Assembly: GCF_002214485.1 (NCBI RefSeq)
Contig: NZ_CP015102.1
Location: 620,001-684,000 of the forward strand
Length of the DNA stretch: 64,000 nt
Direction: 5' to 3'
From: Thermococcus pacificus
GTDB taxonomy: Archaea > Methanobacteriota_B > Thermococci > Thermococcales > Thermococcaceae
Shown here one piece after another: positions 6,397 to 58,088 of this stretch. The notes beneath the pieces were generated by a model that was not told where the DNA came from, ran no database searches, and saw only the letters and a list, made by a program, of their open reading frames with translations. The position numbers and the translations under genes are program-made. Every line of letters begins with the position of its first letter. The stretch's first letter is position 1.

Positions 6397-6963
6397 CAAA
6401 CTTTGATGAAACTTCGCGAGCAAGCTTTTTCCAAAAGCTTGGGCAAAAAAGTCCCCTGCGCAAAAATAGGCGATGGTATTAGCATGCACATTTCGGGACC
6501 CTGTTAAAGCATGGGTTTACTTCCAAAAGAATCCTTCCAGACGGGTTTGCGTTTTGTTCTGGCGTCCTTCAGACGCCTTGAGGAGAGCAAACGTTCGAGA
6601 AATTATGGTTAATGAGCAAACCCACTCGGGAATTCAGCATTTTCAAAACAGCGCGCAATCTTTCCGTCAACGCTTTGCGCCAGCAAGCAAACTTTGCTTT
6701 GCAAAGTTTGATCGAAGAATAAACCCCTGCCAAAACTTCCCAGAATAAGTTTGCGTGTCTCTTTAAGATGGCAAGTTTGAAGGGGTTTGAATCTAGAAAG
6801 CAATCCAAAACAGGTTTCAACTTCCCATTAATCCCTCTGGGCGTTATTATTACAGTGAAACACACTTTAAAAAGCGTTAACGGGAGAACAAATCCTTCCA
6901 AAACCAGGAACTTTTAGAAGTGACATGCAAACCTTGATCAAACTTCGCGCAGGCGAAGTTTGT
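6397..6963 (-). repeat. Dispersed tRNA-flanking repeat element, long copy A
   Basis: Read on the minus strand, the element begins 3 bases after the CCA of tRNA-Pro with the hairpin CAAACTTCGC/GCGAAGTTTG (6939-6962) followed by GATCAAGGTTTGCATG. Three blocks match copy B at 37682-37973 in the same order. These are the first 42 positions (35 identical), the interior block 6807-6863 (GTGTTTCACTGT, AATAACGCCC and GGAAGTTGAAAC all conserved), and the distal end around 6401-6500 (GAAAYGTGCAYGC, then a T-rich stretch, then AAGCTTG and GAAGTTT). A short region CAAAGCGTTGACGG is also shared. Copy A is about 275 bases longer than B and contains a further 10-bp hairpin at 6688-6710. Near-direct repeats lie at 6397-6418 and 6928-6949 (20 of 22 identical). 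No open frame is shared by the copies, so it is a noncoding or MITE-like element. I do not recognise it. Confidence 0.75.
6688..6710 (+). repeat. Internal 10-bp hairpin of repeat copy A
   Basis: CAAACTTTGC TTT GCAAAGTTTG is a perfect 10-bp inverted repeat. It has the same outer seven base pairs as the terminal hairpins at 6939-6962 and 37683-37706 but different inner pairs. It points the other way, which suggests that copy A is a composite of two elements. Confidence 0.7.
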
Positions 6964-6965
6964 GT

Positions 6966-7043
6966 TGGTGGGGCCGCCGAGATTTGAACTCGGGTCCCCG
7001 GCTCCCGAAGCCGGAAGGATAGGCCAAGCTACCCCACGGCCCC
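6966..7043 (-). tRNA. tRNA-Pro (anticodon CGG)
   Basis: The minus-strand cloverleaf has acceptor stem GGGGCCG/CGGCCCC, discriminator A and an encoded CCA (6966-6968). The anticodon stem CCGGC/GCCGG carries loop TTCGGGA, giving anticodon CGG. The T-arm loop TTCAAAT is intact and there is no intron. The TATA box CTTTATAAG at about 7074-7082 lies 30 or more bases upstream. The 3' end is 3 bases from repeat copy A. Confidence 0.96.
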
Positions 7044-9939: not shown

Positions 9940-10274
9940 CCCTCGCCGGCTCTGGAGCCCTTTAGCTCCTGCTCCAGCTCGTTTATCCTTTTTAAGAGGT
10001 TGCGCTTTATGTTATCGAGGACCTCGCCCGGAGAAACGGCGCTGTAAGTGTAGCCGAGCCAGCCCTGTTCGATGAGCGTCCTCCTGAGGATGCCCTTACG
10101 GTAGAGGCTCAGGACATGCTCCCTGACGGAGCGCTCGCTTATGCCGAGCTCTCTCTGTATCTCGGTTATCCTCATCGGTTGTTTTTTCTCAAGAAGAAGT
10201 CTGTATATTTTCAGCTCGGTCTTCTTCACCCCCAGCGAACGCAGCAGTGCCTCAAGCCTCTCGTAGACGTCACT
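9936..10274 (-). CDS. Winged-helix transcriptional regulator (MarR/TrmB-like HTH)
   Basis: The protein has 112 residues from the ATG at 10274, chosen because GGTGAGAG lies just upstream; a further upstream start is possible. An HTH occupies residues 10-75 (KKTELKIYRLLLEKKQPMRITEIQRELGISERSVREHVLSLYRKGILRR) and a short amphipathic helix ends the protein (NLLKRINELEQELKG), probably for dimerisation. There is no ligand domain. The TATA candidate GTTTATAAC at about 10334-10342 lies upstream. It is convergent with the M28 peptidase with a 4-base overlap. The target is unknown. Confidence 0.7.
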   Translation of the reverse strand, partial: SDVYERLEALLRSLGVKKTELKIYRLLLEKKQPMRITEIQRELGISERSVREHVLSLYRKGILRRTLIEQGWLGYTYSAVSPGEVLDNIKRNLLKRINELEQELKGSRAGEG

Positions 10275-37598: not shown

Positions 37599-37676
37599 GC
37601 CCGGGTGGTGTAGCCAGGCCCATCATACGGGACTGTCACTCCCGTGACTCGGGTTCAAATCCCGACCCGGGCGCCA
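37599..37676 (+). tRNA. tRNA-Asp (anticodon GTC)
   Basis: The cloverleaf has acceptor stem GCCCGGG/CCCGGGC, discriminator G and an encoded CCA (37674-37676). The anticodon stem CGGGA/TCCCG carries loop CTGTCAC, giving GTC. The T-loop TTCAAAT is intact. It is co-transcribed with 5S rRNA. The repeat element copy B begins 5 bases after the CCA. Confidence 0.97.
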
Positions 37677-37681
37677 TTCTG

Positions 37682-37973
37682 ACAAACTTTACTTTCGTGA
37701 AGTTTGATTAAGGTTGCATGTCGTGTTTATGGAATCCCTGTTTTGAGGGGGTTGCTCTTCCACTTGCTGGTTCTGCAGTGTTTCACTGTGGGAATAACGC
37801 CCTTCGGGCGTTAATTGGAAGTTGAAACTTGTTTTAGCTGGTGCAAAGCGTTGACGGGAAGTGCGTGCCTTCTGAAAGATGGTTCTGAAACGTGCACGCC
37901 AGTATTATTCACTCAGAGGGAGAATTTTTTGGTCAAACTTTTTCCAGAAGCTTGTTAGTGAAGTTTGTTGTTA
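37682..37973 (+). repeat. Dispersed tRNA-flanking repeat element, short copy B
   Basis: The element lies between the convergent tRNA-Asp (CCA at 37674-37676) and tRNA-Lys (CCA at 37974-37976) and fills the gap completely. It starts with the hairpin CAAACTTTAC TTTC GTGAAGTTTG (37683-37706) and ends, read from tRNA-Lys, with ACAAACTTCAC. Its order of blocks matches copy A at 6397-6963 (minus strand). It also contains AACGCCC TTC GGGCGTT (about 37794-37810), a stable small hairpin absent from A. No open frame longer than background is shared with A. It is noncoding, MITE-like or a structured tRNA trailer. Confidence 0.75.
37683..37706 (+). repeat. Terminal hairpin of copy B next to tRNA-Asp
   Basis: CAAACTTTAC, four-base loop TTTC, GTGAAGTTTG. 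Compared with CAAACTTCGC/CTGC/GCGAAGTTTG of copy A, pair 9 changes from G-C to A-T with both sides altered, and pair 8 from C-G to T-G. The structure is kept while the sequence drifts. Confidence 0.7.
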
Positions 37974-38051
37974 TGGCGGGCCGGACGGGATTCGAACCCG
38001 CGGCCACGGGGTTAAAAGCCCCGCGCTCTAACCAGGCTGAGCTACCGGCCC
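37974..38051 (-). tRNA. tRNA-Lys (anticodon TTT)
   Basis: The minus-strand cloverleaf has acceptor stem GGGCCGG/CCGGCCC, discriminator G and an encoded CCA (37974-37976). The anticodon stem CGGGG/CCCCG carries loop CTTTTAA, giving TTT. The T-loop TTCGAAT is intact and there is no intron. The TATA box CTTATAAAAT lies at 38078-38087. Its 3' end abuts repeat copy B. Confidence 0.97.
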
Positions 38052-57378: not shown

Positions 57379-57912
57379 TTACTTCACCAGGTCTACAGTT
57401 ATCGCGCCTATTACCGCGAAGGTACTCACGAGAACGGTCGCGTTCAGGTATTGGGCCACGTTGAAATCAGCTATCCGGTTGATGCCGTAGAGGTATATCA
57501 ACCCTGCAGAGGTTAGATACGCTATGACTGCCACTGTGAAGAGTCTTTTGGGTATATGGAACATCTCCTCCCTCTTGAGGTTGCCTATCCTGGATTTTGC
57601 TATGAAGAGGTAAGCCACAACCAGCGTCATCAGGAAAATCGCCAGGGAGCGCTCCAGGGAGATATCTTTGGCTATCTCCCACAGCTCGCCGGTGAATAGG
57701 AACGGCAGTGCGAAGGTTATCGCTCCCACCACTTCCTGCGCTATGTCATCCCAGCCGAGGGCGTCCGGCGCTTTCCTGCCGTCGAATTCCTTCCTGAGCT
57801 CCTCTATGCCTTCGTATATCTCCTCAAGTTTCTCCTCCATCGTGGTTCGCCTTTCGTCCTTTGTGCGCTCAGGTTCGGGGTTCATCATCCGGTCAGCATT
57901 GGATTCACTCAT
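57379..57912 (-). CDS. DUF2391-like membrane protein
   Basis: The protein has about 177 residues from the ATG at 57912; the TATA box (TTTATAAC near 57940) implies a start close to there and not at the farther upstream Met. An N-terminal soluble coiled segment (about 20-50, EEKLEEIYEGIEELRKEFDG) precedes four membrane segments (about 65-82, 95-110, 128-146, 155-175). ALGWDDIAQEVVGAITFALP is like DUF2391. The function is unknown. It heads the transcript with TOPRIM and HAD genes. Confidence 0.6.
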   Translation of the reverse strand: MSESNADRMMNPEPERTKDERRTTMEEKLEEIYEGIEELRKEFDGRKAPDALGWDDIAQEVVGAITFALPFLFTGELWEIAKDISLERSLAIFLMTLVVAYLFIAKSRIGNLKREEMFHIPKRLFTVAVIAYLTSAGLIYLYGINRIADFNVAQYLNATVLVSTFAVIGAITVDLVK

Positions 57913-58088
57913 CATCGCGGAAAACTCTTCATCGAGAAGGGTTATAAATGTTGAGATTGACCTTAAACTTGTTACCGTTACAGAATTCACGAAAATCTAG
58001 ATTGGCCTGCTTCTCCGTTTTTCGTTCCCCATTCTCCCCTGGCAGTGTTCCCGGTACTTTTATATACTCGATGAGCATCTGAACGTTC

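Follow-up and report, generated by a model that had tools for sequence, protein, structure and literature searches.

Two noncoding segments behind tRNA genes of the archaeon Thermococcus pacificus raise the question of what kind of element places related sequence at the 3' ends of several tRNAs. They lie in a 64,000-nucleotide stretch of the chromosome (positions 620,001 to 684,000 of NZ_CP015102.1; hereafter the window), copy A behind tRNA-Pro and copy B between tRNA-Asp and tRNA-Lys. The original prediction, made from the sequence of the window, regarded them as members of a noncoding family that uses or forms tRNA trailers. We report that the two copies are indeed members of a family of noncoding repeats associated with the 3' ends of tRNAs. 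They are probably arrays of a non-autonomous, REPIN-like foldback DNA repeat that occurs in Thermococcaceae, is added at tRNA 3' ends and passes from one such end to another.

The family is apparently undescribed so far. Titles and opening abstract lines in the open-licence PMC literature do not describe it, which implies nothing about publications elsewhere, and neither do the available parts of PMC5495485, PMC2718504, PMC3116915, PMC9897764, PMC4877046, PMC4247193 and PMC5316973 (both on transcriptomes), PMC11946384, PMC12713403 and PMC3124441.

Two arrays in the window

ARAGORN and Rfam both placed the three tRNA genes where they had been predicted. The features of the two arrays are as follows:

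6966..7043, minus strand: tRNA-Pro (cgg), carrying array A at its 3' end (ARAGORN, Rfam)
6939..6962, minus strand: terminal hairpin HP1, C-type, beginning 3 nt past CCA (10-bp stem by inspection)
6688..6962, minus strand: array A unit 1, with an inverted hairpin at its end (6688-6710) and a tip-like stretch (6833-6843)
6421..6684, minus strand: array A unit 2, starting with half of an HP2-type hairpin (the 3' half, 6664-6684), with a tip hairpin (6561-6577) and a right-end hairpin (6421-6441)
6276..6417, minus strand: array A unit 3, G-type, with a truncated start (6401-6417) and a tip (6277-6291), mostly past the originally reported left edge
37599..37676, plus strand: tRNA-Asp (gtc), with array B behind it (ARAGORN, Rfam)
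37683..37835, plus strand: array B unit, with HP1 (37683-37706), inner stem arms (37780-37788/37822-37828) and a tip hairpin (37797-37811)
37837..37954, plus strand: array B unit 2, truncated, comprising an HP2 3' half (37837-37857) and a right-end hairpin (37934-37954)
37958..37973, minus strand: half hairpin facing tRNA-Lys (ACAAACTTCAC) at the other end of array B
37974..38051, minus strand: tRNA-Lys (ttt), convergent with tRNA-Asp across array B (ARAGORN, Rfam)

Alignment of the two copies recovered the three ordered blocks that had been noticed, with 71% identity over 158 nt (E 7e-15), 82% over 44 nt and, at the distal end, 75% over 48 nt; the first 42 positions, counted on the alignment, hold 35 identities and one gap. 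As anticipated, the copies share no long open frame: translated matches are short (28 amino acids at best) and spread over several frames, the longest stop-free frames being 114 codons in array A and 71 in array B. The motif ACAAACTTYRC does follow all three tRNAs, starting 2, 5 and 5 nt past CCA for Pro, Asp and Lys, in correction of the 3-7 nt first given. It occurs exactly three times in the 64 kb, each time at a tRNA end, against an expectation of 0.11, and none of 100 shuffles reached three occurrences. Copy A is likewise genuine, with its left edge wrongly drawn at position 6397: the third unit extends to about 6276 and almost touches an ORF ending at 6240. Unit 3 matches the tail of a tRNA-Ile elsewhere in the T. 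pacificus genome (86% over 142 nt), and the array B unit at 37683..37835 matches a tRNA-Cys tail (95% over 145 nt). Rfam also located the box C/D sRNA sR46 in the window (57867-57919, minus strand).

Organisation of the units

Measured from hairpin to hairpin, the unit has a median length of 298 bp (38 units). Each end is an outward-facing hairpin, usually one of C-type (GTTTGATCAAGG) and one of G-type (GTTTCATCAAAG), and the bases next to the end hairpins form an inverted repeat within the unit, such as GTGATTC/GAATCAC or GTAGCTC/GAGCTAC. Across 29 units, this match between the two ends averaged 7.28 of 9 positions, compared with a mean of 6.67 and a maximum of 7.21 in 1000 shuffles. Inner stems and a GC tip lie inside the end repeats. 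None of the 38 units showed a target-site duplication, searched for as an exact boundary repeat of 2-9 nt; many of the flanks are themselves other units.

The units are strongly self-complementary, since 135 tails folded at -89.9 kcal/mol against -67.1 kcal/mol for mononucleotide shuffles. A named structure of 41 pairs was evaluated on an alignment of 20 type-2 units, 3 of 35 such units having been dropped. It left 89.4% of the cells paired, compared with 36-57% when slid along the alignment, and had 27 double-changed cells where shuffles averaged 14.1; the number of pairs with a double change and the number of further pair types did not exceed shuffles in these 20 units. RNAalifold recovered the tip on both 9 and 20 sequences and one inner stem on 9 sequences only, the remaining pairs on 20 sequences differing from the named structure. 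Some terminal hairpins are enlarged by an inserted two-hairpin segment, HP1 in the tails L051 and L052 (tRNA-Leu(tag) and tRNA-Val(cac)) and in L184, L186 and L190, and HP2 in L200.

Placement at tRNA 3' ends

The family is neither restricted to two copies nor indifferent to tRNA flanks: BLAST of the T. pacificus genome (1,785,673 bases) listed 67 matches to copy A and 21 to copy B (E<=10, the weakest possibly arising by chance), many of them at tRNA 3' ends. By eye, the family stands directly behind CCA in 25 of the 46 tRNAs called by ARAGORN in the stretches analysed. Fifteen of these tails are type 1, defined by a CAAACTT or GAAACTT hairpin that is degenerate in two cases, nine are type 2, defined by a CAGCCCTT hairpin, and tRNA-Lys(ttt) carries the half hairpin. 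Where two tRNAs form a pair (Phe-Gly, Glu-Ile, Ala-Val, Asn-Met, Ser-Cys), the first was found by eye to lack the family in this genome. A second genome (G049) has the family on 22 of 46 tRNA tails, labelled by script as 16 HP1, 4 HP2 and 2 half hairpins. G049 is probably T. nautili 30-1, as the position of its tRNA-Leu(caa), 10,012-10,099, agrees with the one published for this strain (PMC9897764).

Across genomes, the hairpin starts 0-9 nt past CCA in 146 of 147 tails from 54 genome labels, with modes at 2-3 and 6 nt. The sets of 147 and 135 tails were limited to tails whose hairpin lies no further than 75 nt (HP1) or 50 nt (HP2) into the tail, with duplicate rows dropped; in the 147-tail comparison, metagenome records were labelled by accession prefix and, except for G003, left unmerged with the genome handles. 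Units flush (0-9 nt) with a tRNA 3' end were found behind tRNAs of 32 isoacceptor labels.

Three element-rich genomes (G061, G049 and G052, with 20, 15 and 14 hairpin matches) provided 49 hairpins, of which 20 are flush with a tRNA 3' end. Seventeen of these begin 2-5 nt past a tRNA found by Rfam, and the other three abut long tRNAs missed by Rfam (Trp twice and one 108-nt call; L219, L229 and L250). A further 17 lie deeper, within about 1.3 kb of a tRNA, and for 12 no tRNA was found within 1.5 kb. The tRNA tie is thus not exclusive. At non-tRNA sites, units border on a stop codon, on the promoter-like box of a divergent gene or on the box C/D RNA sR36, the last at L117:1489-1547, where a unit begins right behind sR36 in place of a tRNA. 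A promoter belonging to the repeats themselves was considered and rejected on inspection: a TATA-like box adjoins some non-tRNA copies, but it reads better towards the divergent gene.

Two other observations concern tRNAs. A second 3' module, ACGAAAGACAAGGGGGCTCCGCCCCC, often followed by CTGTACTCTCAA, stands behind tRNAs that lack the foldback repeat at that end (L206:2119 onward, the T. pacificus tRNA-Val(tac) tail, L295 and L202). The 108-nt gene at L069:3511-3618 (minus strand, genome positions 1666010-1666117) is tRNA-Ser(aga) according to ARAGORN but, judging from the usual gene set, is probably the intron-containing tRNA-Met.

Distribution in Thermococcaceae

Genomes were scanned with the strict hairpin pattern AAACTTN{8,14}AAGTTTSATCAARGTT, which matched 73 of 94 Thermococcaceae genomes and gave no control matches. 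The 21 Thermococcaceae genomes without a match comprise all nine of genus g2, eight of genus g6 and four of the genus of T. pacificus itself, and in the other families of the class none of 21 genomes matched the pattern. In a further genome table, 36 of 61 genomes matched, again with no control match. Relatives of a type-2 unit were found in 52 of 61 own-genus genomes and in none of the nine g2 genomes. Scanning a collection of named genomes with a pattern gave 27 stretches, each bearing the title Thermococcus, Thermococcaceae or Thermococci archaeon, and the plasmid and phage collections yielded no family match. One IMG/VR contig of 87,836 bases has a terminal-hairpin match at L251:4276-4305. 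Loci outside T. pacificus were mostly gathered by similarity to HP1 or to type 2, so that the proportions of HP1 and HP2 among them are biased.

Growth and exchange of the arrays

Behind the first unit, most further copies lie roughly 225-375, 450-600 or 800-1000 nt away from the tRNA. The arrays are polar: the tRNA-adjacent unit mostly keeps its tRNA-facing hairpin, and the inner units have mostly lost that half. Under one strict rule applied equally to proximal and distal units, proximal units had an intact tRNA-facing arm of HP1 in 83 of 89 cases and distal units in 10 of 52; for HP2, whose short motif may give a few chance hits, the counts were 40 of 44 and 3 of 42. Proximal units also match units elsewhere better (164 versus 123.5 bits and 206 versus 118.5 bits), and in 59 paired arrays the unit closer to units elsewhere was the proximal one in 38 and the distal one in 21. 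This polarity suggests that units are added at the tRNA end, although it could instead arise by tandem duplication with loss of the junction.

There is turnover of tails both among tRNA genes and among species. Of 139 tails, 112 have their closest relative from another genome at a different tRNA, with identities of up to 94% (tRNA-Val(gac) of G016 versus tRNA-Arg(ccg) of G011). For 27 of the 139, the closest relative lies behind the same tRNA; label shuffles gave a mean of 5.5 and a maximum of 17, so vertical descent of tails also occurs. In G016, a two-unit array and 94 bp of other DNA separate tRNA-Val(gac) from the next conserved block; at this site the corresponding interval consists of about 1.1 kb of other DNA in G011, G006, G040 and G028, and measures about 0.2 kb in G032 and G035. 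The array of G016 recurs in G011 and G040 behind a tRNA that ARAGORN calls Val(tac) (93-94% identity). Within G049, the loci of tRNA-Gly(ccc) and tRNA-Gly(tcc) are 96% identical over 247 nt, covering the tRNA and 167 nt of tail.

The surroundings of tRNA-Lys offer a closer view. Beside a gene identified through Pfam as an Fe-dependent repressor, tRNA-Asp and tRNA-Lys stand together in 16 of 30 loci. In 14 of these 16 the Asp tail is C-type, G-type or type 2 by eye (seven according to the script labels), and two have none; the type varies between species. In other genomes, the tRNAs upstream of the repressor gene are those for Pro, Gln, Val or Arg. At L182-L211, tRNA-Lys(ttt) lies in either orientation beside the Fe-dependent-repressor-like gene, depending on the species, which suggests small local inversions at arrays.

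Relation to known mobile and repeat systems

Several known systems share part of this organisation. The miniature elements (MITEs) of DDE transposons are short, non-coding, present in many copies and bounded by terminal inverted repeats, and they duplicate their target site. The foldback units are equally short, non-coding, many-copy and bounded by terminal inverted repeats; they differ in having no target-site duplication (0/38), in ends that are themselves hairpins and in their precise siting at tRNA 3' ends. Casposons have terminal inverted repeats and target tRNA 3' ends as the foldback units do, but they carry cas1 and produce 14-15-bp duplications; a casposon origin was rejected, as the 38 units have no boundary repeat. 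The rtT RNA of E. coli consists of tandem repeats behind tyrT and has been reported as an RNA. It resembles the foldback arrays as tandem structured repeats directly behind a tRNA gene, and differs in being known from a single locus and in including tRNA tail sequence in its repeats. A search for an autonomous element enclosed by hairpins led to a 1.9-kb pair in G034 (L232) with tRNA-Ile at one end; its ORF, the sole long ORF between hairpin pairs that was typed, matches Pfam ATPase_2 and not a transposase. In Pyrococcus abyssi, the ncRNAs sRk48 and sRk52 are also repetitive, structured and from Thermococcales; the available part of their description relates them to the 3' ends of OrfB/IS607 transposases and places a promoter before sRk52 (PMC3124441), and this reported transposase link would set them apart from the family described here.

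The closest likeness is to bacterial REPINs, which, in the part of the literature available to us, are inverted pairs of extragenic palindromes forming a long hairpin, occurring in clusters and showing compensatory changes (PMC3116915). The foldback unit too consists of two inverted extragenic palindromes and a spacer that together form a hairpin, with compensatory changes (the 7.28 versus 6.67, maximum 7.21, and the 27 versus 14.1 given above, two other measures not being above shuffles). That the units are REPINs proper, moved by a RAYT, an IS200-type Y1 transposase since lost from T. pacificus, is nonetheless very unlikely. Y1 genes (PF01797) are present in 25 of 94 genomes, but PF01797 has no match in the T. 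pacificus genome, so that no linked RAYT was found, nor in G061, G049 or G052. The same source reports REPINs to be random in extragenic space (PMC3116915), whereas the foldback repeats are not, as the 20 of 49 flush hairpins show, and the archaeal unit, of about 298 bp, lies flush with tRNA 3' ends. We give almost no credence to the view that the units were left behind by plasmids or viruses which tyrosine recombinases had inserted at tRNA genes. Thermococcales integrases do use tRNA genes, according to the available parts of PMC5495485 and PMC2718504, yet the left flank is not repeated at the far end of any of 38 units (14 nt compared per side), one kind of 300-bp unit lies behind many unrelated tRNAs, and the plasmid and phage collections contain no match.

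RNA role or DNA element

Should the tails act as RNA, they would be transcribed together with the tRNA and set free at its CCA end, yielding a multi-copy RNA with a regulatory or protective role. By inspection, no five-T run separates CCA from the hairpin in the occupied T. pacificus tails, so read-through is plausible, and the stems covary. Strand comparison of 135 tails, however, lent no general support to the idea that the repeats use or form tRNA trailers: the sense strand folds lower in 80 of 135 tails compared with 59.5% of mononucleotide shuffles, the mean difference between sense and antisense is -3.6 kcal/mol compared with -3.0 in those shuffles, and type-1 tails are evenly split (35 of 70 and 15 of 28 lower in sense). 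Type-2 units are a partial exception, with sense lower in 30 of 37 tails and G-U exceeding A-C by 79 to 31 in 20 units, both of which point to RNA; in view of this preference of type-2 tails for the sense strand, an RNA role stays among the rival readings. One long-range stem alone accounts for 39 G-U versus 2 A-C, and without stem P1/P1b the counts of 27 and 19 show no clear bias. The inner pairs 8-10 of HP1 comprise 15 G-U and 8 A-C, which are small counts. Units also occur away from tRNAs, inverted and within arrays, and Rfam, run on the window and 18 loci, returned only tRNA, 5S, sR46, Pab160 and sR36, with no match to the repeat above the gathering score. On balance, we regard a structured noncoding RNA as unlikely.

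Similarly unlikely is a selected DNA element at highly transcribed tRNA 3' ends, serving as a terminator, an insulator or a chromatin/SMC roadblock and refilled by recombination when lost. Roadblock work on TrmBL2 and SMC has reportedly been carried out in T. kodakarensis. Such an element would agree with the Asp-Lys locus, which keeps a family tail in 14 of 16 cases by eye (seven by script labels) while the type changes. It would also agree with the convergent neighbours found at 15 of 25 tRNAs with the repeat versus 6 of 21 without, a rough comparison in which ORFs were called by length and are noisy. According to the available part of PMC4877046, the chromatin protein TrmBL2 binds DNA in double- and single-stranded form and influences the opening and closing of hairpins. 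Against selection stand the roughly half of tRNA ends without the repeat in two genomes and the lack of the pattern in all nine g2 genomes. Occupancy of about half of the tRNA ends, taken with stem covariation, would also fit a selected function.

The reading that we prefer, a non-autonomous foldback DNA repeat, would have new units enter between the CCA end and the existing array, each incoming unit consuming the front half of the hairpin already in place. Recombination through the homology of tRNA plus tail would in addition swap entire tails. The repeat would then work like a REPIN, as paired extragenic palindromes spreading in trans, only aimed at tRNA 3' ends; neither the PF01797 search of T. 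pacificus nor the plasmid and phage collections revealed a transposase or carrier. As a by-product, homologous stretches of 250 bp would be scattered over tRNA genes, sites at which inversions of Thermococcus chromosomes have been reported. More tentatively, the family may reflect a new tRNA-3'-end-directed insertion system. Units would be added singly at the tRNA-array junction with CRISPR-like polarity, the newest by the tRNA, and with neither an IS200-type transposase nor a target-site duplication, and the resulting homologies would drive tail exchange and chromosome inversions.

Implications for chromosome rearrangement

The low repeat and IS content of Thermococcus genomes contrasts with their fast rearrangement, as stated in the available part of the T. 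gammatolerans genome paper (PMC2718504). Between T. onnurineus and T. sp. 4557, two inversions have been mapped to tRNA pairs of opposite orientation (Cossu et al. 2017, PMC5495485); the parts of that article available to us describe these tRNA-to-tRNA breakpoints and no repeat family. The legend of one of its supplements mentions strictly conserved sequences immediately after two tRNA-Gly genes (PMC5495485), which, judging from this legend, may be the foldback repeat.

In two genomes, the family described here gives about half of the tRNA genes up to 250-300 bp of common sequence immediately downstream, some of it between convergent tRNAs, and thereby provides a testable substrate for rearrangements. 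Swapping of the foldback repeat between tRNA genes may help to explain why these chromosomes are frequently rearranged at such genes. More generally, our results suggest that short foldback DNA may dock at tRNA 3' ends and that its arrays grow there in a polar fashion.
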